This document shows positions 3,757 to 20,734 of a stretch of 64,000 nucleotides of DNA, piece by piece. The translations under genes were made by a program, and so were the position numbers. The DNA is from a gamma proteobacterium HTCC2207. GTDB lineage: Bacteria; Pseudomonadota; Gammaproteobacteria; Pseudomonadales; Porticoccaceae. The DNA lies in NCBI GenBank assembly GCA_000153445.1, contig CH672396.1, forward strand, positions 467,668 to 531,667, given 5' to 3'. The notes below the pieces were generated by a model. It saw only the letters and a program-made list of their open reading frames with translations. It was not told the DNA's origin and made no database searches. Numbering within the stretch: the first letter of the stretch is position 1; each line of letters begins with the position of its first letter.

Positions 3757-4938
3757 CTATAAAGCGGCCTTTTGTGAGACGCGGTATGCTGTGGGCGTCA
3801 TACCCTCGAGCTTTTTAAAGAATGTGTAGAACACCGATTTGCTGTTGAAGCCCACAGCGAGATAGATATCGGTAATACTAGCTCCTTTGGATTCAGCCAG
3901 CATACGCTTGGCCTCCTCTATGCGATAACGATTAATGAATTCATAGTAGTTAATGCCAAAGTGGCGATTAATCAGCATGGATAGATCTCTGGGCATTATA
4001 TTAAGCGCCTCAGCCAGGCGGTCCAATGTGATGTCGGGCTCCATATAGATCTTGGTCTCGCTTATCGCGCGATCCACTCTAGCGGCCATTTCCGGCTGCA
4101 TAAATGTCTCTTCAGCAGGCTTCTTTGGCGCAGTTGTTTCGTTGACCTGCTCAAAAACACCAAAATAGCGAACGGCAGTGAAGACCAGCAGATTGACCAA
4201 AATAAAAGTGAGGTAGTAGCCGGTTAATCCGATAGTGGCGAACTGGTTCGGTGCCAGCACAAGGCCGGTAACGTTATTGGCTATTTTGACCGCCAATAGC
4301 ACAGCCTCTGATAGCATAACCACTAAAAAGCCGATCACCAGTGCTCTTAGCCAAGAGACATGGATTTTCTCCATATTCGAGTTGGTATTGCGCAATAGGC
4401 TGCTGTAGCGGCTTATCAAGACAAAGCATGCGATGACATAACACACCCTTATAAGTTTGCTAAAGAACTCCATATAGACATAGTTGGCGCTGTAAACAAA
4501 GGTTTCCGATGCGATCATATCCAGGCGCACTTCAGTGGGGCGGGCATAAAATGCTGTGCCAATAAACACTGCGTAAGCGACTAGGGGGGACAGATGCAAT
4601 AGGTCAACTTTGGCTAGTTTGAAGTCTCGAAATACCAATGATTTAAAGCAGAGAAATAACAGCGCACCATCCAGATAATAGGCAATTGCGGGGAAAAAAT
4701 GCAGACTTGGAAGTTTCTCTCTGGCGATGACTTTAAAATCCGCCCCCCACATCATTAGTTCATTGATCGGTATCAGCGCATGAGCCAGTAAAAATAGGGC
4801 TAAGAACCAAATGCTTGCGGTGTTTCTATGGTTAGTGAGGCACAGTAGTAAAAAGCAAAACAGGCATTGCATCGCCGTCATTAGCAAAATAACGTCGTGA
4901 AAATTGAATAATACTGTGTTGAACCCTAACGCTTCCAT
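3757..4938 (-). CDS. AraC-family regulator with an N-terminal multi-helix membrane domain
   Basis: A 393-residue protein. Residues about 10-260 hold roughly seven hydrophobic helices; residues about 285-390 form the AraC DNA-binding domain with two helix-turn-helix motifs (ITLDRLAEALNIMPRDLSML and ITDIYLAVGFNSKSVFYTFF) and the classic GFNSKSVFY signature. Membrane-integrated AraC proteins are common next to carbohydrate TonB receptors in marine Gammaproteobacteria and are thought to read a sugar or receptor state at the inner membrane. It converges with GH30 and diverges from the TonB receptor at 5256, so both are candidate targets. The ligand is unknown. Confidence 0.88.
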   Translation of the reverse strand: MEALGFNTVLFNFHDVILLMTAMQCLFCFLLLCLTNHRNTASIWFLALFLLAHALIPINELMMWGADFKVIAREKLPSLHFFPAIAYYLDGALLFLCFKSLVFRDFKLAKVDLLHLSPLVAYAVFIGTAFYARPTEVRLDMIASETFVYSANYVYMEFFSKLIRVCYVIACFVLISRYSSLLRNTNSNMEKIHVSWLRALVIGFLVVMLSEAVLLAVKIANNVTGLVLAPNQFATIGLTGYYLTFILVNLLVFTAVRYFGVFEQVNETTAPKKPAEETFMQPEMAARVDRAISETKIYMEPDITLDRLAEALNIMPRDLSMLINRHFGINYYEFINRYRIEEAKRMLAESKGASITDIYLAVGFNSKSVFYTFFKKLEGMTPTAYRVSQKAAL

Positions 4939-5255: not shown

Positions 5256-8200
5256 ATGTTTAGAAAGTCAAAACTTTCTGTAGCCATACTTGCCGCCGCG
5301 GGAACGCTGGTAGCAGGACAGGTTATAGCTGAAGGAAGCTCGATCGATGAGGTTGTTGTTACCGGCATTCGCGGTAGTCTTGAGAGAGCCATGGACACCA
5401 AGCGCGATGCGTCTGGCGTTGTCGACGCAATTTCTGCGGAAGATATGGGTAAATTTCCAGATACCAACTTGGCAGAGTCACTGCAGCGTATCTCAGGTGT
5501 ATCTATCAACCGTGTAAACGGTGAAGGTTCTGAAGTAACAGTCCGTGGTTTTGGCGGCGGCTTCAACCTGGTAACGCTCAATGGTCGTCAAATGCCCTCA
5601 GCGAACGTTGGCACTATTACGGGTAACCCATTGGATCAGGGTGCTTCCGGAAGCAGCCGTTCTTTTGACTTCTCTAACCTAGCATCCGAAGGCGTTCGTG
5701 GCCTTCAGGTCTATAAAACCGGCCGTGCATCTGTTGCAACCGGTGGCGTAGGCGCAACCATTAACGTTGAAACTATCAGACCTTTAGAGTCTGGCGGAAC
5801 TCAAGCCAGTGTTGGTGTTAAGGCAGTTAAAGACACTAGCGGCGACGACGTGACTCCAGAAGTAAGCGGCTTGTACAGCTGGTCTAATGACGACTCTACC
5901 TTTGGTGTTTCTGTATTCGGTAGCTTCCAAGAGCGTGACTCTGGCAGCCGCCATGCAAGTGTTGAAGAATTCGGCCTGCGTACATGGGACAGCACTGATC
6001 CATCAAACCTGTCGAACCTGGGTATTGTTGAAGGCGCTACTATCATCAACACACCTAACGATGGTCAGCTGGTTTATCGTCCTACTAACCTAGGTTTGGG
6101 TTTCAACGAAGACAAGCGTGAGCGTACTAATGGTTTGTTAACTGTTCAGTTTGCTCCCAATGACTCAATGACCTTTACCGCTGATGCTGCCTATGCCGAG
6201 AATATTCAGGATTCTACTTCTCTGGTCGACGGCGTTTGGTTTAACGGTACGGTTGATTATGTTGAATATGACGGCGATCCAGTTGTAGCCGCTCCCGTTA
6301 TTTTTGCCGAAGATGTATCCGGTGGTAAGGATTTCTTCTTCCAGAATCTCGATATGGGCACTAAAGATACTTTAGAGTCTATTGGTTTGAACTTGGATTG
6401 GAATGTCAGCGACAAGCTTAACTTGCGCTTTGATGCTGCGTCTTCAGAAGCTAAGAGTGGCGGCAATGGTCCTCAGGGCAACAACGTACTGCGTATGAAC
6501 GTTGCAGGCGGTAATGCCGGTTGGCAGGCTGTTGATTTCGGTCAAGAAATTCCACAGGGTATCGTCTCTGTTGATGATTCTGTTAAGGGCAACAACAACG
6601 GCATCTTTGATCTGGCCGACGTTGGTTCTCAGGTGACTCAGTTTGCAAAGTCTGACCAAGTAGCTGAACTCGAGCAGTTCAATTTTGACGGTAGCTTTGT
6701 TGCTTCTGACAACATCGAAGTTGATTTTGGTGTTGGCTTTATGAGTTCAGAGATGCGTCAAACTCGTCAATCTGGCTCTAATGCGCTAGGTGGTTGGGGT
6801 GTTGATGCTCCTGGTGATATCCCAGAAGGTCTTATCGAGCAGGTTAGCTCTCTTGGTGAGTTCGATTATCAGGGTTCTGGCGTTGCTGGTGTTTCTCAGC
6901 CTGCTGGCGAGACTGCACCGATTGCTCTGGGCTCAGTTTCATGGACAGGTGACCCACTGACATTGCTCAACGCTATGGCACCTATCTACGGTCTAGATCC
7001 CAACAACATGCCGATCAATAGCACTGCTGATAACCGTGTTGAAGAAGACACTATCTCTATCTACAGTCAGATCAAAATGGACGGCGAAGTTGGCGGCATG
7101 CCAATCAACGTAGTCTCAGGTCTGCGTTGGGAAGAAACTGATGTGACGTCTACTTCACAGCAGGCAGTTCCCAGTGCCTTTATCTGGGAGTCTAACAATG
7201 ACTTTACATTCACTCTGGGCGATTCTGTCGACAGCCTAAGCGAAGACTACAGCTACAGCGTGTTGTTACCGAGCTTAGATATCTCTATCGATGTTACCGA
7301 CAATTTGAAAGCTCGTGCGTCGTTTAGCAAGACGCTTGCTCGTCCTGGATACAGTGATATGTACACTGCTACCTCGGTAGAAGCACCTAGCCGTATCACT
7401 CACTTAGGTGATCAGCCTTCAGCTAGTCAGGGCAATGCGCGTCTGGATCCACTGGAGTCGAACAACTTCGATTTCTCTGTTGAATACTACTATGGCGAAG
7501 CGAATTACTTCTCTGTTGGCTTCTTCCAGAAGAACGTATCCAACTTTGTGGGTGTTCAGCAGGCTGATGAGTCTCTGTTCGGTTTGAGAGATGCAACAGC
7601 TTCAAACAGCACTTTCTTGGCTCAAGCAATCAGTGAGTTGTCTTCTATCGGTGTTGCCGAAAGCGAAGATGCACTTTTCTCTATGACTGCAATTTTGCAA
7701 AATATGTCTGACTTCACCGAAACATCTGGTGCTGCAGCATATCAGGCAGCCGAGGGAGCAGCGTCTTCTACTCAGGCATTCCATGAAGCTATCTTCAGCG
7801 AATACGACGTAACCCCTGTTGGCACAGACCCACTGATAGCATTTGCTGTTAAGAGTCCAACCAACTCAAAGACTGCTGAAATCTATGGTTTCGAGCTAGC
7901 ATCTCAGCACTTCTTTGGTGAGACAGGCTTTGGTTATCAGTTTAACTACACGACTGTAGAAGGCGATATTGGTTACGAAAATGGATCTGATCCAAGTGAA
8001 GACCAATTTGCTCTGCCTGGCTTAAGCGACACGTTGAACCTTGTGGGTATTTACGAGAAAGACGGTCTGTCTGCTCGTTTGGCCTACAACTGGCGTGATA
8101 GCTTCCTGAGCCAAGTTAACCGTTCAGTAGGTAGTACTCGTAACCCTGAGTACACTGACTCTGTTGAGCAGTTGGATCTGAATGTAAGCTATGAGTTCGA

Positions 8201-8339
8201 CTCTGGCGTTACTGTGGCACTAGATGCGATCAACCTAACTGGCGAAGGCCAGCGCAAGTACGGTCGCAACAAGAACGCTACATTCTTTGTTCAAGAGCTT
8301 GATCCACGCTACGTATTCTCTGCAAGATACACGTTCTAA
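5256..8339 (+). CDS. TonB-dependent outer-membrane receptor, carbohydrate type
   Basis: A 1027-residue outer-membrane active transporter. A signal peptide covers residues 1 to about 25 (cleavage after QVIA). A TonB-box-like segment IDEVVVTG (30-37) leads into the plug domain, with ISAEDMGKFPDTNLAESLQR and TVRGFGGGFNLVTLNGRQM, the hallmarks of the large receptors that import oligosaccharides in Caulobacter, Xanthomonas and marine Gammaproteobacteria. The barrel ends in aromatic YVFSARYTF, the outer-membrane insertion signal. The next four genes (SapC, cupin, two halogenase-like proteins) are the usual companions of this receptor class. A terminator lies after it, so the companions may be transcribed partly from their own promoter. 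The substrate, probably a beta-glucan oligosaccharide, is inferred from the GH30 and GH3 neighbours. Confidence 0.93.
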   Translation: MFRKSKLSVAILAAAGTLVAGQVIAEGSSIDEVVVTGIRGSLERAMDTKRDASGVVDAISAEDMGKFPDTNLAESLQRISGVSINRVNGEGSEVTVRGFGGGFNLVTLNGRQMPSANVGTITGNPLDQGASGSSRSFDFSNLASEGVRGLQVYKTGRASVATGGVGATINVETIRPLESGGTQASVGVKAVKDTSGDDVTPEVSGLYSWSNDDSTFGVSVFGSFQERDSGSRHASVEEFGLRTWDSTDPSNLSNLGIVEGATIINTPNDGQLVYRPTNLGLGFNEDKRERTNGLLTVQFAPNDSMTFTADAAYAENIQDSTSLVDGVWFNGTVDYVEYDGDPVVAAPVIFAEDVSGGKDFFFQNLDMGTKDTLESIGLNLDWNVSDKLNLRFDAASSEAKSGGNGPQGNNVLRMNVAGGNAGWQAVDFGQEIPQGIVSVDDSVKGNNNGIFDLADVGSQVTQFAKSDQVAELEQFNFDGSFVASDNIEVDFGVGFMSSEMRQTRQSGSNALGGWGVDAPGDIPEGLIEQVSSLGEFDYQGSGVAGVSQPAGETAPIALGSVSWTGDPLTLLNAMAPIYGLDPNNMPINSTADNRVEEDTISIYSQIKMDGEVGGMPINVVSGLRWEETDVTSTSQQAVPSAFIWESNNDFTFTLGDSVDSLSEDYSYSVLLPSLDISIDVTDNLKARASFSKTLARPGYSDMYTATSVEAPSRITHLGDQPSASQGNARLDPLESNNFDFSVEYYYGEANYFSVGFFQKNVSNFVGVQQADESLFGLRDATASNSTFLAQAISELSSIGVAESEDALFSMTAILQNMSDFTETSGAAAYQAAEGAASSTQAFHEAIFSEYDVTPVGTDPLIAFAVKSPTNSKTAEIYGFELASQHFFGETGFGYQFNYTTVEGDIGYENGSDPSEDQFALPGLSDTLNLVGIYEKDGLSARLAYNWRDSFLSQVNRSVGSTRNPEYTDSVEQLDLNVSYEFDSGVTVALDAINLTGEGQRKYGRNKNATFFVQELDPRYVFSARYTF

Positions 8340-8463
8340 GATGACTAAAATGTTCTCTCTGGTAGCTCTTGTTACCAGGGAGGGCAGATTAGTTTGAACA
8401 CTTTTGCGAAGAGTAGTAATGGGAAAAAGTAGTACTAAGCAAATATTTATACAGTAGTTCCGA

Positions 8464-8504
8464 TAAGGCCTCCGCGTAGTTACTAGCGGAGGCCTTATTT
8501 TATT
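8464..8504 (+). terminator. Rho-independent terminator after the TonB receptor
   Basis: A perfect 12-bp stem TAAGGCCTCCGC/GCGGAGGCCTTA with a ten-base loop, followed by TTTTATT. A weaker hairpin (CTCTCTGGTA...TACCAGGGAG near 8356-8383) precedes it without a T-run. It would reduce read-through into sapC. Confidence 0.88.
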
Positions 8505-8576: not shown

Positions 8577-9308
8577 ATGAGTAAAACAGTACTTTTAAAC
8601 AACGTCGAACATAAAGACTTGAAAGTTGACTCCAGCCACAGAGCTGAATATGGCGATAATGTGAATCGCATTTTAGCCTTTTCCACAGAATTTGGTGACC
8701 TGCAAAAGGAATACCCAATACTATTTTATAAAGACCCTAAAACAGAAGCCTTTCAGGCTCACGCTATTTTAGGTCTCGCCAAGGACGAAAATCTGTTTTT
8801 AGGCGATGATGGTTGGACAGGTAATTATGTCCCAGCTGTATTGGGCCGCGGCCCATTTCTTATCGGCTTTCAAGACCGTGAAGTTGATGGCAAAGCGGTT
8901 AAGGAACCCGTTATTCATATAGATATGGATAGCCCAAGAGTTGGCACCGACAGCGGACAGCCTTTATTTCTTGCCTACGGAGGCGATACGCCTTACTTAG
9001 AAAAAATCATGCAAACCCTTCAGGTAATTCATCAGGGCGCTGATCTCGACAAGAGATTCTTTTCAACACTCGATGCCATGGAGTTGTTTGAACCGGTCAA
9101 TATAGAAATCTCCCTGAGCAGTATTGCCAATGTAAACTTGCCTGATTATTACACTATTAACAAAGATAAATTGGCGCAGTTGGACGGTGAAAGTTTAGAA
9201 AAGCTAAACCGTATGGGCGTATTGAGCCTGGCGTACTTTGCGTTGGTATCCCTGGGTAACTTTAATAAGCTGATCGAGTTGAAAAACCAGAGCTCGGCGA
9301 TTGTTTAG
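8577..9308 (+). CDS. SapC-family protein
   Basis: A 243-residue soluble protein of the SapC family (PF07277). Recognisable segments are HAILGLAKDENLFL, VPAVLGRGPFLIG, and the C-terminal NRMGVLSLAYFALVSLGN. The family is named after a Campylobacter surface-array export gene, but its biochemical role is unknown. In marine and plant-associated Proteobacteria it occurs almost always beside TonB receptors, cupin/JmjC proteins and tryptophan-halogenase-like proteins, as here. It has no signal peptide, so it should act in the cytoplasm. Only 27 bases separate it from the cupin gene, suggesting one transcript for 8577-13500. Function is not assigned beyond this association. Confidence 0.88.
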   Translation: MSKTVLLNNVEHKDLKVDSSHRAEYGDNVNRILAFSTEFGDLQKEYPILFYKDPKTEAFQAHAILGLAKDENLFLGDDGWTGNYVPAVLGRGPFLIGFQDREVDGKAVKEPVIHIDMDSPRVGTDSGQPLFLAYGGDTPYLEKIMQTLQVIHQGADLDKRFFSTLDAMELFEPVNIEISLSSIANVNLPDYYTINKDKLAQLDGESLEKLNRMGVLSLAYFALVSLGNFNKLIELKNQSSAIV

Positions 9309-9335
9309 CAACCCCGCAGAAAAACTACTTTAATT

Positions 9336-10367
9336 ATGCGTTCTCCAGATAATAAAGTTCGGGTTATTGAGGGTGTAAGGCCCGACCAGATTCCTTTTGA
9401 TGAGCTGTTCCAGTCCAATCAGCCGATTATATTGCGCGGCTTGGTGTCTGACTGGGGGCTGGTTAAGGCAGGGAATGTGTCGCCAGAAACGGCAATGGAC
9501 GTTTTGCAGAGTCACAACAGTGGCAATCCCGTTGGTGTGTATGTTGCGCCGCCTGAAAGCAAGGCGCGGTTTTTTTATAACGACGATTGTAGCGGCTTTA
9601 ACTACGCCAGCCAGCACCGCGAACTGAGTGATATATTCAGCCAAATTCGCGACAACCAAAACAACCCTAATCACCCTTATCTGTATATGAATTCTCTGAC
9701 CCTGGATAATTGCTTTCCCGGGTTGCGCGACCACAATGACCTCGCCTTTGATCATCCACTTTTTACTCATAACAAGCCTTTATCCAAGGTCTGGGTAGGC
9801 ACAGAGTCGATTGCTGCCGCGCACTATGACGTACCCAGTAATTTAGCTTGCTGTGTACTGGGTAAGCGCCGCTTCACGCTATTTCCCCCAGAGCAGATCC
9901 ATAATCTGTACCCTGGTCCCCTGGAGCCGACTCCCGGCGGACAGGTTATCACCATGGTGGATCTGAAAAATCCTGACTTTGAGCGTTTCCCGCGAGTTCG
10001 TCAGGCGTTGGATGCGGCAGTGGTAGTGGATTTGGAACCTGGCGATGCCGTTTACTACCCAAGTATGTGGTGGCATCAGGTAGAGGCCTTGTCGCCGTTT
10101 AATATTATGATTAATTTTTGGTGGCTGACTGCCCCAGCCTATATGGGCAACCCTATGGACATAGTAATGCACGCCATGCTGGGTTTGAGAGATCGCCCCG
10201 AAGCCGAAAAGCAGGCTTGGCGGGAAGTGTTTGAATACTACGTGTTTGGCTCGCCGGAAACACCGAGAGAGTATCTGCCGCCATCTGCGCAGGGTGCATT
10301 GGCGGATCTTGATGACAATATGGTTCGACGCCTTCGAGCCTTAGTAAAAAATAAGCTAAATCGCTAG
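9336..10367 (+). CDS. Cupin_8/JmjC-like Fe(II)/2-oxoglutarate-type hydroxylase
   Basis: A 343-residue protein with the double-stranded beta-helix of the Cupin_8 (JmjC-like) family. The iron triad is visible: AHYDVPSN supplies His and Asp of the HxD pair near residues 167-169, and YYPSMWWHQVEAL supplies the distal His. The lysine in VLGKRRFTLFPPEQ is where JmjC-like enzymes bind 2-oxoglutarate. Related enzymes hydroxylate side chains of proteins or peptides. It is cytoplasmic (no signal peptide) and sits between SapC and two flavin halogenase-like genes. The substrate is unknown; a peptide or protein target is inferred from the family. No clear Shine-Dalgarno precedes the ATG, so translation may depend on coupling from sapC. 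Confidence 0.85.
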   Translation: MRSPDNKVRVIEGVRPDQIPFDELFQSNQPIILRGLVSDWGLVKAGNVSPETAMDVLQSHNSGNPVGVYVAPPESKARFFYNDDCSGFNYASQHRELSDIFSQIRDNQNNPNHPYLYMNSLTLDNCFPGLRDHNDLAFDHPLFTHNKPLSKVWVGTESIAAAHYDVPSNLACCVLGKRRFTLFPPEQIHNLYPGPLEPTPGGQVITMVDLKNPDFERFPRVRQALDAAVVVDLEPGDAVYYPSMWWHQVEALSPFNIMINFWWLTAPAYMGNPMDIVMHAMLGLRDRPEAEKQAWREVFEYYVFGSPETPREYLPPSAQGALADLDDNMVRRLRALVKNKLNR

Positions 10368-10449
10368 CCGCCCTAAGTTGCCTTGGATTGGATTGGATTG
10401 TTAGGTTGGGCTGCGCGAAAAATAAAATAATGTTGGGGGAGATAAAAGA

Positions 10450-11931
10450 ATGATGAAAGTGGTTATTGCTGGAGGTGGAACAGCCGGCTGGATGGCAGCT
10501 TGCGGTCTTTCATCCCGGTTGGCGAGTTTGCTGGATATTACCCTGATCGAGTCTGATGAAATTGGCACCGTAGGGGTAGGCGAAGCGACGATTCCACCTA
10601 TGCGTAATTTCCATCGACTGATGGGCATAGATGAGCAGGAATTTATGCGTGAAACCCAGGCTACGTTTAAGTTGGGTATTGAGTTTGATAACTGGGGCAA
10701 TATTGGCGACAGCTATATTCACTCCTTTGGTGAAATCGGTCAGCGCTCTTGGATGGCAGAGTTTCACGAATTCTGGATGGAAGCACAGGCCCAAGGTTTC
10801 GGCGGCAGTCTCGAGGATTACTGTCTCGAACTAAAAGCGGCTAAAGCAGGTAAGTTCGCCACCGCAATCGGCGACACAAGATTAAATTTTGCCTTTCATC
10901 TCGACGCCACGCGCTACGCAAAATACCTGCGCAAAAAAAGTGAAAAAGCGGGTGTGCGTCGTGTTGAGGGATTGATTGAGGACGTTCAGAAAGATCCCCA
11001 GTCCGGCGAGATAAAAGCCCTGCTATTGAAGAGTGGCGAGCTTATCGAAGGCGATCTATTTATCGACTGCACCGGGTTCCGTTCTCTGCTGCTGGGTGAA
11101 TCACTCGGCGTAGAATTCGACGATTGGAGTCACTGGTTATTCTCAGACCGAGCTATTGCGGTGCAGACGGAATCGATTGATGAACCAGTGCCCTATACCC
11201 GTGCAACAGCGCATCCCTCTGGCTGGCAGTGGCGCATCCCGCTGCAAAGTAGGGTCGGAAATGGCATTGTTTACAGCAGCCGTTTTATGTCTGACGACGA
11301 AGCCAAGCAAACCTTGCTAAATAATATTTCAGGGAAGATGATTACCGAGCCTCGACATATTAAGTATCGCACCGGGCGGCGTCAGAAATCCTGGCATAAA
11401 AACTGTGTTGCATTGGGATTGGCCAGTGGGTTTATTGAGCCATTGGAGTCCACCAGTATCCATCTGGTGATGACCGCCATTATTCGTTTAATTCGTCTCT
11501 TTCCCTTCGGCGATTCCAGCACAGCATTGGCCGATCGATTTAATCAGGAATCGACTACCGAGATAGAAACCGTAAGAGACTTTGTGATTCTGCACTACAA
11601 GCAAACCAATCGCACCGACACTGACTTTTGGAATGCGTATCGCACAATGGATATACCGGATACCCTTGCTCACCGCCTCGATATCTTTAAGAACAACGGC
11701 TATGTTTGGCCCGATGATGTCGCCTTGTTCCGCGTTGATTCCTGGGTTCAGGTGATGATGGGGCAGGGCTTAACGCCCAGCGGTTTCCACAGCGCAGGCA
11801 AGCTCACAGGTAGTGAAGGTCTTCAGCAATCACTGGCCAAATTAAAGACCTCGATTGATGAGAAGGTGGCCAAGCTTCCAACCCATCAGCAATTTATTGA
11901 CCATTACTGTGCTGCGCCCAAGGCAGACTGA
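10450..11931 (+). CDS. Flavin-dependent tryptophan-halogenase-family protein, canonical motifs
   Basis: A 493-residue member of PF04820. The FADH2-binding motif GGGTAGWM starts at residue 8. GVGEATIPP follows at 42-50. The lysine equivalent to PrnA K79 is K74 in FKLGIEFDNW; the diagnostic WxWxIP reads WQWRIP (259-264); the catalytic glutamate is E333 in PLESTS. All residues needed to make and guide hypohalous acid therefore appear present. These locus-associated proteins usually lie next to sugar TonB receptors rather than in antibiotic clusters, and their true substrates are unknown. GGGGGAG upstream of the ATG is a strong ribosome-binding site. A flavin reductase partner is not encoded nearby. 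Confidence 0.9.
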   Translation: MMKVVIAGGGTAGWMAACGLSSRLASLLDITLIESDEIGTVGVGEATIPPMRNFHRLMGIDEQEFMRETQATFKLGIEFDNWGNIGDSYIHSFGEIGQRSWMAEFHEFWMEAQAQGFGGSLEDYCLELKAAKAGKFATAIGDTRLNFAFHLDATRYAKYLRKKSEKAGVRRVEGLIEDVQKDPQSGEIKALLLKSGELIEGDLFIDCTGFRSLLLGESLGVEFDDWSHWLFSDRAIAVQTESIDEPVPYTRATAHPSGWQWRIPLQSRVGNGIVYSSRFMSDDEAKQTLLNNISGKMITEPRHIKYRTGRRQKSWHKNCVALGLASGFIEPLESTSIHLVMTAIIRLIRLFPFGDSSTALADRFNQESTTEIETVRDFVILHYKQTNRTDTDFWNAYRTMDIPDTLAHRLDIFKNNGYVWPDDVALFRVDSWVQVMMGQGLTPSGFHSAGKLTGSEGLQQSLAKLKTSIDEKVAKLPTHQQFIDHYCAAPKAD

Positions 11932-11955
11932 TCCGCTAAAAATATTGAGGCAATA

Positions 11956-13500
11956 ATGACTAAAACGGTAGTGATCGTAGGTGGTGGCAGTGCTGGTTGG
12001 TTGACAGCCGGCATTATTGCCGCCCGCCATAATCCTCTTGGTGAGGCAGGGCAAGGTACTAAAGTGATACTCCTTGAATCGCCGGATGTTGCCAATCTGG
12101 GTGTGGGCGAAGGAACCTGGCCAACCATGCGCGACACTCTGCGTCGCATAGGGATATCGGAAGGGGATTTCTTGCGCGCCTGCGATGTGGGCTTCAAACA
12201 GGGTTCTCAGTTTATCAACTGGCAGCGGGGTGAAGGGGAATCTTACTACCATCCTTTTGTTCCCCCGGCAGGTTACGGTTCTGTCAATTTGGCTGCCCAC
12301 TGGTTGGATAAAGCTGTGGATAGCACCTTTGCCGATGCCGTGTCTCCTCAGGGTAAGGTCTGTGATTTAGGGCTTGCGCCGAAAACAGCGCGCACGCCCG
12401 AATATGCTTTTGGGCTTAACTATGGCTACCATCTCAACGCCGGAAAATTTGTTGAATTATTAAAGCGCCACTGTGTAGACAAGCTCGGAGTGGACTATCA
12501 ATTGGGCCATGTTGACCAGATATTGTCGGATGAAAATGGTGATATCTCAGCGCTGTTATTAACTGCAGGCGACAAAATATCTGGCGATCTATTTGTTGAC
12601 TGCACGGGCTTTTCCGCTCTATTAATTGGCCAGCACTATCAGGTGCCCTTTGTCTCTCAGCGCGACTGTTTATTTAATGACACCGCTCTTGCGGTGCAGG
12701 CTGACCATGCTGACGAAGATACCCCTATCGCTTCCTGCACCAAGTCCACCGCCCAATCCAGTGGCTGGGTTTGGGACATTGCACTGCCAACGCGGCGCGG
12801 TATCGGCCACGTATTCTCCAGTCAACATATCTCCGTGGAAAAAGCGGAAGACGAGTTGCAGCGCTACCTTGCCGCAGACCCCGCTCTGGCGAAAAAGCAG
12901 CACAGCCCTCGAAAGATCACCTTTCAGCCGGGCCATAGAGAGCATTTCTGGCACAAGAATTGTGTTGCAGTGGGCGTCTCAGCGGGATTTGTTGAGCCCC
13001 TAGAGGCCAGTGCACTGGTATTAATTGAAAAGTCCGCGGAGTTTGTCAGCAATAACCTACCCCAAGACCGCGGGGCAATGACGGTTGTCGCTAAGCGTTT
13101 TAATGAGATTATCAGCAAATACTGGGTCGATATAATTGATTTTTTGAAGCTGCATTATGTGCTGACTGAACGCACGGATTCAGATTATTGGCGCGATCAT
13201 GTTCGGCCCCAGTCGATACCAGACAGTCTTCAAGACTCCTTGGAATTGTGGCGTTCTCAGGTTCCCTGGGTCTCGGACGGCAATAATCGCGCGGAGCTAT
13301 TTTCCGCTGCTAGTGTCCAGTACATACTTTATGGAATGGGCTTCGCTACCCAGATCAACAGTAGTCGCTATCGGGATTGGGATAAGGATGCGCTATTGGC
13401 GGACAGATTGATGCGTGATAATCGCGGCAAGACTGAGGCGCTAATGGCGAGCCAGCCGACCAACCGTGATCTGCTTAATCTGGTGCGCAGAACTTCCTAG
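11956..13500 (+). CDS. Second tryptophan-halogenase-family flavoprotein, divergent active-site motifs
   Basis: A 514-residue paralogue of the preceding gene, 24 bases downstream. The FAD motif GGGSAGW and GVGEGTWPT are kept, and K81 in FKQGSQFINW matches the halogenase lysine. Two signatures differ: the WxWxIP motif reads WVWDIA (alanine for proline), and the catalytic PLEST reads PLEAS (E350 kept, next residue Ala instead of Ser). It may halogenate a different substrate, act as a plain flavin hydroxylase, or form a heteromer with its neighbour. The gene ends in an 11-bp duplication (ctagagaattt/ctagggaattt at 13497-13518) that begins at the stop codon. Confidence 0.88.
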   Translation: MTKTVVIVGGGSAGWLTAGIIAARHNPLGEAGQGTKVILLESPDVANLGVGEGTWPTMRDTLRRIGISEGDFLRACDVGFKQGSQFINWQRGEGESYYHPFVPPAGYGSVNLAAHWLDKAVDSTFADAVSPQGKVCDLGLAPKTARTPEYAFGLNYGYHLNAGKFVELLKRHCVDKLGVDYQLGHVDQILSDENGDISALLLTAGDKISGDLFVDCTGFSALLIGQHYQVPFVSQRDCLFNDTALAVQADHADEDTPIASCTKSTAQSSGWVWDIALPTRRGIGHVFSSQHISVEKAEDELQRYLAADPALAKKQHSPRKITFQPGHREHFWHKNCVAVGVSAGFVEPLEASALVLIEKSAEFVSNNLPQDRGAMTVVAKRFNEIISKYWVDIIDFLKLHYVLTERTDSDYWRDHVRPQSIPDSLQDSLELWRSQVPWVSDGNNRAELFSAASVQYILYGMGFATQINSSRYRDWDKDALLADRLMRDNRGKTEALMASQPTNRDLLNLVRRTS

Positions 13501-13546
13501 AGAATTTCTAGGGAATTTACTCAGCGGTTAAGGCCTAGTCCAAGCG

Positions 13547-14263
13547 TCAGGAGAATTCGATAAAACTGGTAACCGTTAGGCGTCCGGTCTCAGGGCTGGG
13601 GTCAAAGTTATAATTCGGCCCAATAATTCCCGAGTGCAGGCTTGATCCGCGGTACATCAGCAATCGGTTATAAGCTGCTCCATAGGATGTAATCTGTGAA
13701 TAGTCCTTAGTAGAACCGCAGATATAGCCTGAAGGTTGACGTGCAGGGTCTTGAAGCCGGTTTACAATGCTAGCCTCATAATTTCCAAGCCGACTTCTGT
13801 CTATATAGTCATAACCGGTTTCACCGTGATGATAAAACGCAGTGCCGGAATCTGCTGCATCGCAGAGATAATGTATCACCGCCAAACTGTCTCTTGAAGG
13901 CGCATCAAAATGAGGCATGCGCTGCATGAGCTTAAGATCTTCAGGTTTGGAAGTAACTATCGAATATTTTGATGCGGCTGATTTTATCTTGCGCAGATCA
14001 AGATTAAAAAAATCGCGGATAAGGCCCTGAAAATTTCGTACTAGCCCGACAATATACGCATCAGATATGGCCATTCTGACGCCGGGATAAAAACTGTCTG
14101 CAACGGCGAAAGAATTTCGTCTAATGGCGTCCTGCTTAAGTGCGTCAGCGCCTTGAATATAGGAATCGACCCGTACTAGTTCCTGTTGGTCGGCGCCAAA
14201 TTTCACGCATTCGTATTGCATAGTATCGCAGGGTGCATAAAGTGATTTTTCATCAACAGACAT
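13547..14263 (-). CDS. DUF6445 protein, putative Fe(II)/2-oxoglutarate oxygenase
   Basis: A 238-residue protein convergent with the halogenase genes. The middle shows MPHFDAPSRDSLAVIHYLC with an HxD pair and GTAFYHH, and the C-terminal part shows RGSSLHSGI, with the distal His, followed by GRLTVTSFIEF, with an arginine where prolyl-hydroxylase-like enzymes bind 2-oxoglutarate. This fits the DUF6445 family, which also accompanies TonB-receptor/halogenase loci. It would be the second oxygenase of the cassette. Substrate unknown; the enzyme class is inferred from the spacing of the His, Asp and Arg residues. Confidence 0.75.
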   Translation of the reverse strand: MSVDEKSLYAPCDTMQYECVKFGADQQELVRVDSYIQGADALKQDAIRRNSFAVADSFYPGVRMAISDAYIVGLVRNFQGLIRDFFNLDLRKIKSAASKYSIVTSKPEDLKLMQRMPHFDAPSRDSLAVIHYLCDAADSGTAFYHHGETGYDYIDRSRLGNYEASIVNRLQDPARQPSGYICGSTKDYSQITSYGAAYNRLLMYRGSSLHSGIIGPNYNFDPSPETGRLTVTSFIEFS

Positions 14264-14590
14264 TTTTTTGATTCCTTGGCGCCACTTCTTCGCTAAAACA
14301 GGGCCATGTTTTTGGAGGCAGCAGCAGGCTAACTTAAAGGCTTAGCTTGCTGTTCACTTTGGACTAATAGTGCAGCATAAATGAATTTTCGATAGATGCA
14401 CATAGGTTATTATTTTGCCAAAAACGTAGCCGCAAAATGGTAAGATTCGGCCGCGGATTTACTGGATCTAGAAAGATTAAAAATGTCTTTTAGGCATTCT
14501 GCAAATGCAGCAAATGGCGATTATCTTATCGACCTGTAAATGCTAAACAAAAATAGTTAATACTTTAAAATTTATAATCGGAGTTTCTTG
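14264..14590. promoter_or_regulatory. Divergent control region between the DUF6445 and GH3 genes
   Basis: A 327-base stretch without a gene that I can support. It must contain the outward promoters of the DUF6445 gene (minus) and the GH3 gene (plus). It is AT-rich toward the GH3 start and contains the short direct repeat GCAAATGCAGCAAATGGCG, but no operator or terminator that I can name. Confidence 0.5.
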
Positions 14591-17113
14591 ATGAGTGGCA
14601 CACCTTATTTCATGGCGGGCTTAGTATTGTCTGTATTAGTTGGATGTGATTCTGGCCCTGCTGTGGACAAAACGGCTTCTGCCGTGGCAAAAATTCATCC
14701 AGAGATCTGGCCCAAACAGGCCTCACCCTTTGCCCAAGATGAAAATTTAGAGCAGCGAGTTAACGCTCTAGTCAACAATATGAGTCTAGAGGAAAAGGTC
14801 GGTCAGACTATTCAGGCGGATATTGCATCGGTCACGCCAGATCAAGTGCGTGAATACCATTTGGGATCCATACTCAATGGTGGTAACTCCGCACCAGGGG
14901 ATGACAATCGAACAACCCCAGCGGCTTGGGTAGCCCTCGCCGATGAATTTTGGTTGGCCTCCACCGACAAGCGAGATGGTCGAATCGGTATTCCCGCACT
15001 CTGGGGAACAGATGCTGTGCACGGGCACAATAATATAGTCGGCGCGACACTCTTTCCCCACAATATCGGTCTAGGTGCAGCCAATAATCCAGAGTTGATG
15101 CATCAAATCGGTACTGTTACTGCCAAAGAGATTCTTGTTACCGGTTTAGATTGGACCTTTGCGCCAACTATTGCTGTTGTCCGTGACGATCGCTGGGGGC
15201 GAACCTATGAAAGTTTCTCCGAGGATCCGGCCATCGTTAGAGAATACGCAGGTCATTTGGTAGAGGGCCTTCAGGGCAAACTCAGCGACAACACTTTCCT
15301 CGATGACGATCATCTGATCGCAACAGCCAAACACTTTATTGGTGACGGCGGCACTGTCGATGGCCGCGATCAGGGCGACAATATCTCCAGTGAAGAAGAC
15401 TTGCGAGATATTCAGGGCGCCGGTTATCCGGTGGCGATAAATCGTGGTGTGCAATCGGTGATGGCCTCTTTTAATAGCTGGCATGGCCGAAAACTGCATG
15501 GTTATAAAGAACTGTTGAGCGATGTACTTGTAGATCAAATGGGATTTTCTGGATTTGTCGTTGGCGACTGGAACGGCCACGGACAGGTCGAGGGCTGTAC
15601 CAATGAGTCCTGCGCGGCGTCTTTTAATAATGGCGTAGACATGTTTATGGCGCCTGATAGCTGGCAAGAGCTCTATGCCAATACCTTGGCTCAAGTAAAA
15701 ACGGGCGAGATTAAGATGGCGCGTTTAGATCAAGCGGTAAGTCGTATTCTGAGGGTAAAAATACGTGCCGGATTGTTCGAGGCGGGATTGCCTTCAAAGC
15801 GCAAATATGCGGGTCGCTATGAGTTACTCGCCGCCCCAGAGCATCGAAAAATCGCCCGACAAGCGGTACGTCAGTCGCTGGTTCTACTGAAAAATGCAAA
15901 TCAATTACTGCCGCTTTCGCCAGCCGCGAATATCTTGGTTGCCGGTGATGGTGCCCACAATATTGGCAAACAGACCGGCGGTTGGACGCTATCTTGGCAG
16001 GGTAATGGCAACACTAGAGAACATTTCCCCAACGCAATGTCGATTTTTGAGGGTATTGAAGAGCAAGTTAAAGCGGCTGGTGGTCAAGCAACTTTAAGCA
16101 TAGAGGGTGAGTACAACACCAAACCTGACGTGGCTGTGGTGGTGTTTGGCGAAGATCCCTATGCAGAGTTTCAGGGCGATCGCCCACATGTAGACTTTCA
16201 ATCTGAAGCGGCTTTGGAATTGCTCAATAAATTTAATTCTCAGGGTATTCCCACTGTAGCGGTTTTCCTCTCTGGGCGAGCAATGTGGGTTAATCCTGAA
16301 ATAAATGCTGCAGATGCTTTTGTTGCCGCTTGGTTACCTGGCAGTGAGGGTGCTGGTATTGCTGACGTTTTGTTGCGCAGCGTCGGCAATGAAATTCAAT
16401 ATGATTTTCATGGCCGGCTGTCTTTTTCCTGGCCTAGAACGGGTATCCAAACCGCGGTTAATGTTGGTGACCAAGACTATAACCCTCTCTTTGCCTATGG
16501 TTTCGGTTTGAAATATTCGGATACTGGTGAGCTTGAAACGCTTTCAGAAGATGCGCAGCTGGGCGACAGTGCTAAGAACCAAAGTCTGAATTTTTTAAAT
16601 GCAGGCGAAGCTGTTTCACCTTGGCGTTTGGTCATGCGTGACTCTGCCGGTACCCTGCAGGTAACTCAGTCAAAGGCCGTCAGTGCTTCAGGTGTGCTAA
16701 CAATGGCAGCGGTTGATTATATGGCTCAAGAAGATTCCCGTTTATTCGCCTTTTCGGATGCGGCCACGCTGTCTATTGAAGGTGAGGCTATTGATATTTC
16801 ACGTGAATCTAATGGTGATATGGCGATAGAAATTCACTATAAAGTGCTCGGGGAGTCAGTCGCTAAAACGACTCTTGGTGTTGGCTGCGGTAATGACTGT
16901 TCTGGTGCTATGGATATTACAGAAGCGCTAGCGAGCAAGCTTAATCAGGGATGGCAGACCTCCCGTCTAAAGCTAAATTGCTTTGCCGAAAAAGGGGCCG
17001 ATATGGAAAATATGAGCTCACCTATCATTTTGAAAGTCTCTGGACCACTGCAAGTGCAGTTGAGCTCGATTAATATCGTTAGTAATCAAGGGGACGCTAG
17101 CTGTTCCCTGTAA
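14591..17113 (+). CDS. GH3-family beta-glucosidase/exo-glucanase lipoprotein
   Basis: An 840-residue exo-acting glycosidase. The ATG at 14591 is chosen over the in-frame TTG just before it because CGGAG lies seven bases upstream. The lipobox LSVLVGC predicts a lipidated Cys19. The N-terminal GH3 barrel carries KHFIGDGGT and the nucleophile aspartate (about residue 326) in GFVVGDWNG; the second domain contains VFGEDPYAEFQGDR, where the acid/base glutamate of exo-1,3/1,4-beta-glucanases lies. Residues after about 660 form an extra beta domain seen in ExoP-type enzymes. It probably releases glucose from beta-glucan oligosaccharides in the periplasm, downstream of GH30 and GH16, feeding the MFS sugar porter. 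Confidence 0.92.
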   Translation: MSGTPYFMAGLVLSVLVGCDSGPAVDKTASAVAKIHPEIWPKQASPFAQDENLEQRVNALVNNMSLEEKVGQTIQADIASVTPDQVREYHLGSILNGGNSAPGDDNRTTPAAWVALADEFWLASTDKRDGRIGIPALWGTDAVHGHNNIVGATLFPHNIGLGAANNPELMHQIGTVTAKEILVTGLDWTFAPTIAVVRDDRWGRTYESFSEDPAIVREYAGHLVEGLQGKLSDNTFLDDDHLIATAKHFIGDGGTVDGRDQGDNISSEEDLRDIQGAGYPVAINRGVQSVMASFNSWHGRKLHGYKELLSDVLVDQMGFSGFVVGDWNGHGQVEGCTNESCAASFNNGVDMFMAPDSWQELYANTLAQVKTGEIKMARLDQAVSRILRVKIRAGLFEAGLPSKRKYAGRYELLAAPEHRKIARQAVRQSLVLLKNANQLLPLSPAANILVAGDGAHNIGKQTGGWTLSWQGNGNTREHFPNAMSIFEGIEEQVKAAGGQATLSIEGEYNTKPDVAVVVFGEDPYAEFQGDRPHVDFQSEAALELLNKFNSQGIPTVAVFLSGRAMWVNPEINAADAFVAAWLPGSEGAGIADVLLRSVGNEIQYDFHGRLSFSWPRTGIQTAVNVGDQDYNPLFAYGFGLKYSDTGELETLSEDAQLGDSAKNQSLNFLNAGEAVSPWRLVMRDSAGTLQVTQSKAVSASGVLTMAAVDYMAQEDSRLFAFSDAATLSIEGEAIDISRESNGDMAIEIHYKVLGESVAKTTLGVGCGNDCSGAMDITEALASKLNQGWQTSRLKLNCFAEKGADMENMSSPIILKVSGPLQVQLSSINIVSNQGDASCSL

Positions 17114-17340: not shown

Positions 17341-17871
17341 ATGACGCCGAATAATCAAAAAAGCGAGATTCATGAGGTCTATAGTCGCCATCGTGCTGAA
17401 CTGTGTCGTTATGTCATCAATAAAGTTAATGTTACTAATGATGAGGCTCAGGATATAGTTCAGGCGGCCTTTGCGCGGGTAATTGAAATGGATTTTGAGC
17501 AGATCAAAAATCCAAGGGCCCTGCTATATAAAACCAGTTATAACATCGCCATTGACCAAGTAAGGCACAGTGGCGTGCGCCAGAGACATGTTCAGGCGGT
17601 TGTTGATGCCGATGCGAAAATGGTTGAGGAGTTAAGTCCAGACCGTATTCATGATGGCAAGCGGCAGCTGAGAATTGTCGTTAAAGCGCTTTGGGGTATG
17701 CCCAAAAAACGCCGGAGGTTGATGGTGATGAGTCGTTTTGATGGGCTGAGTTATGCTGAAATTTCTCGAACAGTGGGTCTGTCAGAAACAGTTGTACGTA
17801 AGCATGTAACAAAAGCACTTTTGGAGTGTCAAAAAGCGCTACAAGCCCAAGCGGGTAAGAATACACAATGA
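17341..17871 (+). CDS. ECF sigma factor, FecI-like
   Basis: A 176-residue sigma-70 family protein of ECF size. Region 2 shows RYVINKVN...DEAQDIVQAAFARVIE and NPRALLYKTSYNIAIDQVR, which recognise the -10 element; region 4 shows LSYAEISRTVGLSETVVRKH, the -35 helix-turn-helix. It overlaps the downstream FecR gene by four bases (ATGA), typical of translationally coupled sigma/anti-sigma pairs. A TonB receptor with an STN domain is encoded 2.8 kb downstream, so a FecI/FecR/FecA-type surface signalling chain is plausible. The neighbours are sugar genes, so the signal is more likely a glycan than an iron chelate. Confidence 0.9.
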   Translation: MTPNNQKSEIHEVYSRHRAELCRYVINKVNVTNDEAQDIVQAAFARVIEMDFEQIKNPRALLYKTSYNIAIDQVRHSGVRQRHVQAVVDADAKMVEELSPDRIHDGKRQLRIVVKALWGMPKKRRRLMVMSRFDGLSYAEISRTVGLSETVVRKHVTKALLECQKALQAQAGKNTQ

Positions 17872-18899
17872 GTGAAATATATATGCAGTTTTCAGATCAG
17901 GTTAATCAGCAGGCGGCGGAGTGGTTTACTCTTATGCAGTCTGGTGATGTGTCCGCCAGTGACCGCGAGGCTCTGCAAGCCTGGTTGGCCGAGCATTCTG
18001 ATCATGACAAAGCCTTTAAGCAAATGGAGCTTTTGTGGCAGGACCTGGGTGATGTGGCCGACACTGCTGAGGGTCGAGCGCTTCGCCAATCGGTGGAATC
18101 TGAATCCATAGCTGCGCGGCTGCAACAGCTACTTATGGCGCCGCTGATAAATCTCAAAAATATTTTTTCTGTGCCAACCTATGCCATGGCGCTTGCTGTT
18201 GTTTGCATAGCGGTCGGAGCGCTTATGTTGCCAATCGCCAAAGAGCCGGTGACGGTTTATTACAGTACTCAGCACGGCGAAATAAAAACCATTGTATTGG
18301 CGGATAATTCAGAGATCACTCTGGGTGCCAAGTCGGCGATTAGAACCCATATCTCGGAGTCTGATCGAACGGTGGAGTTGCTCAATGGCGAAGCTTTTTT
18401 TGATATAGCCAAAGATCGACAAAAGCCATTTTCTGTTGCAGTGAATGATGTGTTGATCGAAGTGGTGGGCACTCAATTCAATGTTCAAAAAATACGCGAT
18501 GCGGTCAATGTGGCTGTTTTAGAAGGCATAGTGAAAGTTTTCGAACAGGCTGCTAGCCAGACTGTATCGCTTCCTGATGTAGTCCTGACTGCGGGGCAGA
18601 AAGTGGTTAAATCAAATGACCGAGCTTTTGAGTCAGTGACAGCAGTATCCAGTTCCGACCTCGGCGCTTGGCGTTTGGGCCGCTTAATCTACAGAGATAT
18701 CTCATTGGCGGATATAGTTGCCGACGCCGGCCGCTACTTTGACGGCAAAATAATATTGCAGTCGGACGATCTTGACGAGGTAAAGGTCACTATGACATTG
18801 CGTACAGATCAAGTGGGCCAGCTGCCGGAAATGTTGGCGCAAACGCTGCCGCTGAAAGTGCAGGTTATCTCCGAAAAACTCATCTTGCTCAAGAAATAG
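17868..18899 (+). CDS. FecR-family membrane anti-sigma factor/signal transducer
   Basis: A 343-residue single-pass inner-membrane protein. Residues about 10-60 form the cytoplasmic DUF4880 sigma-binding domain (AAEWFTLMQSGDVSASDREA). One transmembrane helix lies at about 103-124 (YAMALAVVCIAVGALMLP). The periplasmic FecR domain follows (about 130-225: LADNSEITLGAKSAIRTH, GEAFFDIAKD, VVGTQFNV), then a C-terminal STN-like/DUF4974 segment (WRLGRLIYRDISLADIVADA). In the Fec paradigm the periplasmic part contacts the STN domain of the outer-membrane receptor and then releases or activates the sigma factor. The likely partners are the sigma factor at 17341 and the receptor at 20735. Confidence 0.92.
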   Translation: MSEIYMQFSDQVNQQAAEWFTLMQSGDVSASDREALQAWLAEHSDHDKAFKQMELLWQDLGDVADTAEGRALRQSVESESIAARLQQLLMAPLINLKNIFSVPTYAMALAVVCIAVGALMLPIAKEPVTVYYSTQHGEIKTIVLADNSEITLGAKSAIRTHISESDRTVELLNGEAFFDIAKDRQKPFSVAVNDVLIEVVGTQFNVQKIRDAVNVAVLEGIVKVFEQAASQTVSLPDVVLTAGQKVVKSNDRAFESVTAVSSSDLGAWRLGRLIYRDISLADIVADAGRYFDGKIILQSDDLDEVKVTMTLRTDQVGQLPEMLAQTLPLKVQVISEKLILLKK

Positions 18900-18974
18900 G
18901 CGATCGCGGTAGCCTGCGAATTCCGGTCGCCTGTCAATTTACACTGTGATGTCGACCGAATTGGACAGGTCTTG

Positions 18975-19049
18975 TACCGCTTTCGACTTTACCGCCTTCG
19001 AGCTTACCGCTTTCAAACTTGCCACTTTCGAATTTATCACTTTCGAACT
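18975..19049. repeat. Five tandem copies of a degenerate 15-bp unit
   Basis: Units begin at 18975, 18990, 19005, 19020 and 19035 and follow the consensus TACCGCTTTCGAACT with one to four changes each. The array occupies the gap between the FecR gene and the sugar porter, ending 82 bases before the porter start. No conserved spacer exists, so it is not CRISPR. Its role, if any, is unknown. Confidence 0.92.
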
Positions 19050-19131
19050 TACTATTAAAAAACGACAAAGAAGTAACTGCCATCAGGCACTAAAATAATA
19101 ATCAGCAATAATAAAAAACGTAGAGGGAATC

Positions 19132-20565
19132 ATGTCTATCGCCGCAAGCTCCAGTACTAAAAAACTCAGTATTTTACAAATCACCATTGTCGCTGCATTA
19201 GGCGGTTTATTGTTCGGATATGACACCGGTGTGATAGCGGGCAGTCAGCTTTATTTCACCAAATATTTTAACCTTTCTGCCGCCGAGCAGGGTTGGGCAG
19301 TCAGCAGTGCGCTCTATGGTTGTCTAGTGGGTGCACTGGCAGGTGGGTATCTCACTAAGCGCATCAGCAGAAAGTACACGTTGATCCTTGCGGCTTCTCT
19401 CTTTGCTGTTTCGGCCTGGGGTTCTGGTATGGCAGCAACCCTCAATGAGCTGGCGATTTACCGAATTATTGGTGGTCTTGCCGTGGGCATGGCCTCACTG
19501 GCGGCACCTATGTACATTGCTGAAATGGCGCCACCTAAATACCGTGGTCGTATGGTTTCCTACTATCAGTTGGCCGTGGTTATTGGTTTTTTTGTAGTGT
19601 TTTTGGCGACCTATTTTATCGGCGGTGGCGACACGCAGAATATGACCCCAGAAGTGCTTGCGCAGCTTCATGAGCACAATGTCAATCAGGGCTGGCGCAT
19701 TATGCTCTGGTCTGAGCTATTGCCGGCACTGGCTTTCTTGGGGCTGTTATTTACTGTGCCGCACAGCCCCCGCTGGTTGATCTCACAGGGCCGCACTGAA
19801 GAGGCTAAAACTGTGCTGGCTCAGATAACCTCAAGCGAGCAAGAGGCGGCGTCTGAGTTTGCTGATATAGAGGCGTCTCTGACCCATAGTCCAGCCCCAA
19901 ACCTGGCCATGTTGTTTGGTAAAGGTATTGGTTTTGCTCTATTTCTCGGTGTTATGTTGTCGATATTCCAGCAGGTCACTGGTATCAATGCGATTCTCTA
20001 TTACGGTGCGGAAATATTTAGTAACGCCCTAGGTTATGGCCCAGAAGATGCGCTTAAGCAGCAGCTATGGCTGGGGGCGGTCAATCTGATCTTTACCTTT
20101 GTCGCTATTTACAAAGTCGATAGCTGGGGCCGCAAGCCACTGTTTATTGCCGGTAGTATAGGTATGTGTGCCGGTTTAACTGTGCTCGGTCTGACAATTT
20201 ACACTCAGCAGATGGGTGTTGTTTCCCTGATCGCGGTACTGGTCTTTATCGCCTCATTTGCCATGTCTATGGGCCCAGTTGTGTGGGTAATGTTGTCGGA
20301 AATGTTTCCGAATAATGTACGCAGTGTCGCTATGTCGATCGCTGTTGCGGCGCAGTGGCTATTCAATGCTCTGGTAGCCAATAGCTTCCCTCTGGTAAAC
20401 CAAAGTACCTTGAATCAGGAAGGCTTTAACGGCGCGCTGCCATACTTTATCTTTGCCTCGTTCTGTGTAGTTGCGATGATATTTGTCTGGAAGCTGGTTC
20501 CCGAGACCAAGGGTAAGACACTTGAGGAAATGGAAGCACTTTGGTCCGCCAAGGACGCAGGCTAA
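19132..20565 (+). CDS. MFS sugar porter (sugar/H+ symporter family)
   Basis: A 477-residue inner-membrane transporter with twelve predicted helices. Sugar-porter signatures are complete: GYDTGVIAGSQ in helix 1, LTKRISRKYTL in loop 2-3, VPHSPRWLISQGR (PESPR motif) after helix 6, QQVTGINAILYYG in helix 7, and VPETKGKTLEEME at the C-terminus. Glucose, galactose or xylose import is typical. With the GH3 exo-glucosidase upstream, glucose is the best guess. GAGGGAAT before the ATG is a good ribosome-binding site. Confidence 0.93.
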   Translation: MSIAASSSTKKLSILQITIVAALGGLLFGYDTGVIAGSQLYFTKYFNLSAAEQGWAVSSALYGCLVGALAGGYLTKRISRKYTLILAASLFAVSAWGSGMAATLNELAIYRIIGGLAVGMASLAAPMYIAEMAPPKYRGRMVSYYQLAVVIGFFVVFLATYFIGGGDTQNMTPEVLAQLHEHNVNQGWRIMLWSELLPALAFLGLLFTVPHSPRWLISQGRTEEAKTVLAQITSSEQEAASEFADIEASLTHSPAPNLAMLFGKGIGFALFLGVMLSIFQQVTGINAILYYGAEIFSNALGYGPEDALKQQLWLGAVNLIFTFVAIYKVDSWGRKPLFIAGSIGMCAGLTVLGLTIYTQQMGVVSLIAVLVFIASFAMSMGPVVWVMLSEMFPNNVRSVAMSIAVAAQWLFNALVANSFPLVNQSTLNQEGFNGALPYFIFASFCVVAMIFVWKLVPETKGKTLEEMEALWSAKDAG

Positions 20566-20734
20566 GGTGCTGCTGACAATTGCAGTGGGCTCTAGATGAG
20601 GAGGACTATATATTGCTAAATATGCGCATTCGTATAAGCTTTGTTTGTTAGAGTGATCGACGAGTTGCGCAGGAAGAACCCTGTACAAAAATTCCAAAAA
20701 ATAGAGCGTGGGCTACCGCGCCATTGATTTGATA

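Follow-up and report, generated by a model that had tools for sequence, protein, structure and literature searches.

A halogenase, oxygenase and SapC gene cassette beside TonB-dependent sugar receptors: a possible receptor-modification module in Gram-negative bacteria

Background

For many PF04820 halogenases of marine and soil Proteobacteria no substrate has been assigned, and the two members of the type considered here that have been studied most closely were crystallised without one. Xcc4156 is a halogenase that is inactive on free tryptophan and whose native substrate is not known; given its open active site and its failure to accept free tryptophan, the authors of its structure paper proposed a peptide substrate (PMC7336383). 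BrvH is likewise a halogenase that is inactive on free tryptophan and has no known native substrate (PMC5945002). Enzymes of this type take free indole in vitro (PMC5945002; PMC7336383), with a low specific activity, and indole is thought not to be their natural substrate (PMC5945002). Elsewhere in the superfamily, ChlH halogenates internal tryptophans of peptides and of some proteins (PMC12518702), and MibH shares merely 26% identity with Xcc4156 (PMC7336383). Here, we analyse a locus in which two halogenase-family genes (HalA and HalB), a SapC gene and two genes for predicted oxygenases (Cupin_8 and DUF6445) stand beside the gene of a TonB-dependent receptor. It lies in a 64,000-nt stretch of contig CH672396.1, called the window below, from a SAR92-clade bacterium with a 2.6 Mb genome.

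The original prediction for this locus, made from the sequence, held that the receptor or another protein of the locus might be the target of the neighbouring enzymes. We found that comparable cassettes accompany TonB receptors with great regularity, in enzyme sets that vary from locus to locus, and that the receptor is the best evolutionary partner of HalA. Put most broadly, Gram-negative bacteria may halogenate and hydroxylate outer-membrane sugar transporters with receptor-dedicated enzyme sets in which SapC is the recognition partner, a proposal that we hold tentatively and rate as falling somewhat short of an even chance.

Results

The receptor and the five cassette genes were placed by a profile search of the window's open reading frames (ORFs), as follows.

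5256-8339, + strand: TonB-dependent receptor, TIGR01782 (TonB-Xanth-Caul), the proposed target of the cassette (619 bits, cut-off 310)
8577-9308, + strand: SapC family protein, PF07277 (E 3.5e-67)
9336-10367, + strand: Cupin_8, PF13621, FIH-like Fe(II)/2-oxoglutarate (2OG) oxygenase (E 3e-75)
10450-11931, + strand: HalA, Trp_halogenase PF04820, Xcc4156/BrvH type (E 8e-187)
11956-13500, + strand: HalB, Trp_halogenase PF04820, 2PYX-type flavoprotein (E 5e-113)
13547-14263, - strand: DUF6445, PF20043, predicted 2-oxoglutarate/Fe(II) dioxygenase (E 2.9e-62)

All five cassette genes are intact, with family scores far over the Pfam cut-offs, and their order is receptor, SapC, Cupin_8, HalA, HalB and, on the opposite strand, DUF6445, with a glycoside hydrolase (GH) gene of family GH3 beyond. 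The profile matches therefore bear out the gene content first proposed, five families between a TonB receptor and GH3 with GH30 on the other side. Also as proposed, none of the five enzymes carries a signal peptide by inspection, and no nonribosomal peptide synthetase (NRPS) or polyketide synthase (PKS) was found among the window ORFs scanned. A precursor peptide encoded in the intergenic gaps was considered and rejected, as no conserved ORF is present there; the 238 bases that separate receptor and SapC hold no small ORF conserved across 8 relatives and have two stem-loops instead. Neither the precursor peptide of a ribosomally synthesised and post-translationally modified peptide (RiPP) cluster nor the backbone synthetase of an NRPS/PKS cluster was found in this gap or among the window ORFs scanned.

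A TonB receptor lay directly beside the cassette in 47 of 51 sampled loci that contain SapC together with a halogenase or a cupin. Two of the four exceptions were on contigs cut short and two were loci with remote flavoproteins only; among complete cassette loci, 47/47 abut a receptor. Sampling from the halogenase side, we took ten of the top twenty HalA relatives in a plasmid collection, with annotated records preferred and receptors disregarded, and all ten adjoin a TonB receptor, often as receptor plus HalA alone (hosts: Sphingomonas, Sphingobium, Catenovulum, Asticcacaulis, Croceicoccus, Niveispirillum and Croceibacterium). The constant pairing with one target gene family that would be expected of a receptor-dedicated maturase is seen in both the complete loci and the plasmid loci. 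From the receptor side, we examined 60 TIGR01782 receptors from 8 genomes and found a cassette enzyme next door to 21 of them; the genomes had been chosen as cassette carriers, so this 35% is no global rate. Within the SAR92 family, a halogenase was located within 6 kb of 53 of the 73 SapC genes and SapC within 6 kb of 97 of the 119 halogenase matches, and 48 genomes had both SapC and a halogenase vs 4 and 6 with one only (all counts uncorrected for shared ancestry). The cassette arrangement is far beyond chance.

Strict co-occurrence of the five families with one receptor subfamily, which the original prediction had led us to look for, turned out to be wrong in detail: subsets are found, several receptor clades are involved, and SapC also occurs alone. 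The enzyme sets range from HalA only, Cupin only, and HalB with SapC to three halogenase-like genes with DUF6445 (HalA, Hal, HalA, DUF6445) and the full set. Neighbouring genes point to beta-glucan (GH3/GH16/GH94), chitin (GH20), starch (GH13/pullulanase) and xylan (GH43/GH115), with agarase and fucosidases as further glycan neighbours. The receptor is the sole constant part across these loci. That the enzyme sets and the glycans vary around a constant receptor is a strong argument against the glycan as the substrate and a moderate one against a free small molecule.

Trees built with FastTree were used to follow the cassette along the receptor phylogeny. On a tree of 94 receptors, cassette presence required 9 changes, vs 29.8 when shuffled (0/500), and the cassettes have therefore been inherited with receptor clades. 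In the 30 loci that carry receptor, SapC, Cupin and HalA, receptor distances correlated with those of HalA at 0.85, SapC at 0.77 and Cupin at 0.55, and the enzymes with one another at 0.63 (HalA-SapC) and 0.47 (HalA-Cupin). The exception was SapC-Cupin at 0.65, where the receptor was not the best partner. Partial correlation left receptor-HalA at 0.74, with HalA-SapC at -0.09 and HalA-Cupin at 0.06. Receptor-HalA was still 0.81 with the receptor cut to 240 columns, the pattern persisted after noise correction (0.91 vs 0.74 and 0.54), and its sign was the same in all 500 subsamples. Of the cassette genes, HalA usually lies at the greatest distance from the receptor yet correlates with it best, and simple linkage would predict the reverse. 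Co-divergence with the neighbouring GH3 was weak (receptor-GH3 0.36, SapC-GH3 0.19). Our reading is that the module has the receptor as its hub, to which HalA and SapC are fitted. Cupin and HalB seem to fit the receptor less well and to be exchanged more often; HalB showed 11 changes on the receptor tree.

HalA is a full-length PF04820 match (622 bits) with the GxGxxG, catalytic lysine and WxWxIP elements of a halogenase, here as GGGTAGW, FKLGIEFDNW (catalytic Lys) and WQWRIP, followed by PLEST. WQWRIP or a close variant was seen in nearly all of 46 HalA sequences, and the FKLGIxF lysine motif in 43/46. Its best structure matches are 6Y1W (Xcc4156, E 9e-175), 9LUQ and 6FRL (BrvH). HalB best matches 2PYX (Shewanella, unpublished; 2e-170) and 9LTB. 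It keeps the lysine and PLEAS motifs and carries WVWDIALP where halogenases have WxWxIP, a subfamily feature: most of 41 HalB sequences have WxWDI(A/G)LP in place of WxWxIP, and 38/41 have the lysine motif. HalB is therefore best described as a halogenase-family member, for which halogenation is predicted rather than proven. Weak NCBIfam matches were recorded to QhpG (HalA and HalB, 28-32 bits vs a cut-off of 240) and to LodB (HalA, 21 bits vs a cut-off of 400). QhpG and LodB modify protein tryptophans in the maturation of Trp-derived quinone cofactors. A single flavin reductase gene elsewhere in the genome (C2:11234) could supply FADH2.

Among related halogenases, two genomes (G165 and G286) have 15-16 full PF04820 genes each, which would be expected if every receptor has its own. 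Two receptor loci, L240 (10.3-15.5 kb) and L242 (2.4-6.9 kb), carry three consecutive halogenase-like genes, of which the middle one has diverged strongly (at most 59 bits to HalA); DUF6445 is also present in L240. Marine phages of Synechococcus, Prochlorococcus and Pelagibacter encode halogenases ~30% identical to HalA, and one may speculate that such a phage enzyme modifies surface receptors of its host. An anti-phage defence role for the cassette was considered and rejected, with no PADLOC match.

The Cupin_8 protein has the iron triad H163-x-D165...H247 and the 2OG-binding R178 of an oxygenase, conserved >90% in 44 sequences. Its closest solved relatives (E 2e-20) are FIH, the best match, and JMJD5; FIH is an asparaginyl hydroxylase that acts on proteins. 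The AlphaFold model of DUF6445 (predicted local distance difference test, pLDDT, 93.5) has a double-stranded beta-helix fold, with Foldseek matches to 3BVC, GriE, proline 3-hydroxylase and PHD2 at E 1e-4 to 9e-4, and the residues H118-x-D120, H210 and R228 are invariant. From the model, DUF6445 is predicted to be a 2-oxoglutarate/Fe(II) dioxygenase. SapC was also modelled with high confidence (pLDDT 93.9), and a fold search of solved structures returned no relative (best E 0.67). SapC is not always found with a cassette: about 80 of the best 100 PF07277 matches (L070-L169) stand alone without conserved neighbours, and these form a branch nearly separate from cassette SapC.

The host locus and the receptor-SapC gap contain these further features.

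2155-3627, + strand: GH30 (profile match)
3757-4938, - strand: AraC-type regulator (profile match)
8351-8386, + strand: stem-loop of 16 pairs, terminator-like, just 3' of the receptor stop
8463-8498, + strand: perfect 13-bp inverted repeat followed by a T-rich run (read from the sequence; kept in 8 SAR92 relatives)
14588-17113, + strand: GH3 with an Exop_C domain (profile match)

The conserved 13-bp repeat with its T-rich tail suggests partial termination, which would leave receptor abundant and enzyme scarce; this element is likely a leaky terminator by which the enzymes are expressed at a lower level than the receptor. Together, the two stem-loops (8351-8498) probably set the receptor-to-enzyme expression ratio, with much receptor and little enzyme. 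After GH3 follow a FecI/FecR-like sigma/anti-sigma pair, a sugar transporter of the major facilitator superfamily (MFS) and a second TonB receptor (17341-23578), none of them accompanied by a halogenase. A GH16 laminarinase-like gene at the window end (62226-63974) fits beta-glucan use by this genome.

The genome has only four halogenase genes and only two SapC genes, which together make two cassettes. The second (contig C2, locus L005, 8102-16337) runs receptor, HalB, SapC, Cupin_8, HalA and is without DUF6445. It adjoins its own TIGR01782 receptor, with GH3, a LytT-like response regulator and a histidine kinase upstream. Counterpart proteins of the two cassettes are 37 to 52% identical, and the cassettes are therefore old paralogues and not a recent copy. 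Near relatives of the cassette come from SAR92 and Porticoccaceae records, and DUF6445 is part of the SAR92 version.

Discussion

The idea that the receptor is the target gains independent support from its constant adjacency, the mix-and-match enzyme sets, the five glycans and the receptor-centred co-divergence. What the data establish is the gene content, the position beside receptors, the variable enzyme sets, the range of glycans, the co-divergence and the intact catalytic motifs. That the receptor is the substrate we infer, as we do which of its residues are altered and by what chemistry, what SapC does and how the physiology of the cell is affected. The cassette would be a receptor-dedicated maturation module. 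HalA and HalB, supplied with FADH2 by the flavin reductase encoded elsewhere, would oxidise or halogenate aromatic side chains of the receptor, most likely tryptophan; in the sea, bromination would be the favoured reaction. Hydroxylation of other receptor side chains would fall to the Cupin_8 and DUF6445 oxygenases. Modification would take place on the unfolded chain in the cytoplasm, before Sec export, with SapC binding the receptor chain or presenting it to the enzymes, and its effect would be to adjust how sugar is bound or to shield the receptor at the cell surface. Precedents exist in ChlH, in QhpG and LodB (weak profile matches here) and in the protein hydroxylase FIH, and the open active site of the HalA relative Xcc4156, which might accommodate peptides, points the same way. 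We give receptor-dedicated side-chain modification before export an even chance of being correct.

A target residue was sought in the receptor. In 45 loci of one clade, residue 514 is Trp in 38/38 loci with HalA and in 0/7 without, and P114 tracks Cupin equally well in the same loci, both as raw associations. Under phylogenetic pairing (87 receptors) the associations of W514 and P114 disappear or cannot become significant, and a sliding-window search along the receptor found no segment whose tracking of HalA stands out beyond that of the receptor as a whole. Five tryptophans of the window receptor (W328, W382, W514, W644 and W946) recur in 89 to 98% of the receptors linked to HalA and are candidate sites, nothing more, on the strength of this conservation. 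No solved homologue of the receptor was found by sequence at 1e-5.

Several observations weigh against the receptor as target. In the column-by-enzyme scan of the 87 receptors, no column was significant for any enzyme after phylogenetic pairing, with 4 to 11 contrasts per enzyme and hence a weak test. HalA-linked receptors of the starch clade carry Tyr or Phe at position 514, and tryptophan content is equal in linked and unlinked receptors, with no enrichment. Most TIGR01782-family receptors are without a cassette, so the modification is not generally needed. Selection on a ligand that both partners share, and not contact, could lie behind the co-divergence. Finally, no modified receptor has been seen so far, and receptor modification is a prediction. 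Different receptor clades may be modified at different sites. The proposal that the receptor is the target thus gained from adjacency, enzyme subsets, glycan range and co-divergence, and lost in that no residue tracks an enzyme after phylogenetic control.

The main rival, which we consider unlikely, is that the enzymes synthesise or alter a free small molecule (e.g., an indole- or Trp-derived signal or a compound of the cell surface). After export, this product would be sensed or imported by the receptor next door, and every receptor locus would keep its own enzyme copy. The in vitro use of free indole by HalA-type enzymes is consistent with this, as is the common import of modified small molecules by TonB receptors, and a receptor that recognises the product would also give co-divergence. 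However, the indole activity is low and indole is thought not to be natural, the loci have no backbone, scaffold or precursor gene, the cassettes reduce to a receptor and one enzyme, and the receptors belong to loci for at least five different glycans. A second alternative makes the receptor a mere neighbour and places the modification on a different exported product of the locus, such as a GH lipoprotein or a secreted glucanase, or on several proteins of the envelope; it draws on the GH genes that are usually close by and on the ability of cytoplasmic enzymes to act on any chain before export. We regard it as very unlikely, since the GH families change between loci around a constant receptor and GH3 co-diverges weakly. 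That the enzymes act in catabolism on the imported glycan or its attached aromatic groups seems scarcely credible: although the genes sit within carbohydrate-utilisation loci and are probably co-regulated, the same enzyme families accompany beta-glucan, chitin, starch, xylan and agar receptors, laminarin and starch bear no aromatic groups, and most comparable loci have no cassette.

The enzyme families, the receptor family and the locus type are all known already. A literature search on halogenases with TonB, SapC or laminarin found no paper making the link, and the role as a receptor-dedicated oxidative and halogenating module is not described in the literature searched; the gene association may have been noted previously, possibly by Iyer et al. 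2010 (NAR). If receptor modification is true, no earlier case of a large membrane protein halogenated by dedicated enzymes would precede it, and the Xcc4156/BrvH/2PYX halogenases would gain the native substrate that they have lacked. Bacterial protein modification would also gain a new class, located at the surface, where the cell encounters phages, glycans and competitors. Since the enzymes are tied to a specific, abundant outer-membrane protein that can be purified, mass spectrometry can address the question directly, and cassette carriers exist in the named genera Sphingobium, Asticcacaulis and Catenovulum.

Comparison with known systems

As in described carbohydrate-utilisation (CUT) loci, a TIGR01782 receptor, GH3/GH30/GH16, a sugar MFS transporter and an AraC regulator occur together in this locus; the paper describing those loci makes no mention of a halogenase, SapC or cupin (PMC1790865). 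FIH and JMJD5 share with Cupin_8 the HxD...H triad and a basic 2OG-binding residue, and the similarity is mostly in the catalytic core. ChlH and MibH belong to the same superfamily as HalA and HalB, and such enzymes can act on tryptophan within peptides and some proteins. They work in RiPP clusters with a precursor peptide and maturases, whereas the present loci yielded no precursor, and the target proposed for them is a transporter of 1000 residues. QhpG and LodB are, like the enzymes proposed here, halogenase-like flavoproteins serving one co-encoded protein, although HalA and HalB score far under those family cut-offs and their partner is no oxidase or dehydrogenase. The closest likeness in sequence is to Xcc4156, BrvH and 2PYX, which have in common with HalA and HalB the GxGxxG, catalytic lysine and PLEST/PLEAS motifs. 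In the 2PYX-type HalB, WxWDI(A/G)LP replaces the halogenase hallmark WxWxIP. Xcc4156 and BrvH have been characterised without a native substrate, whereas their relatives here sit in a conserved, receptor-linked cassette.

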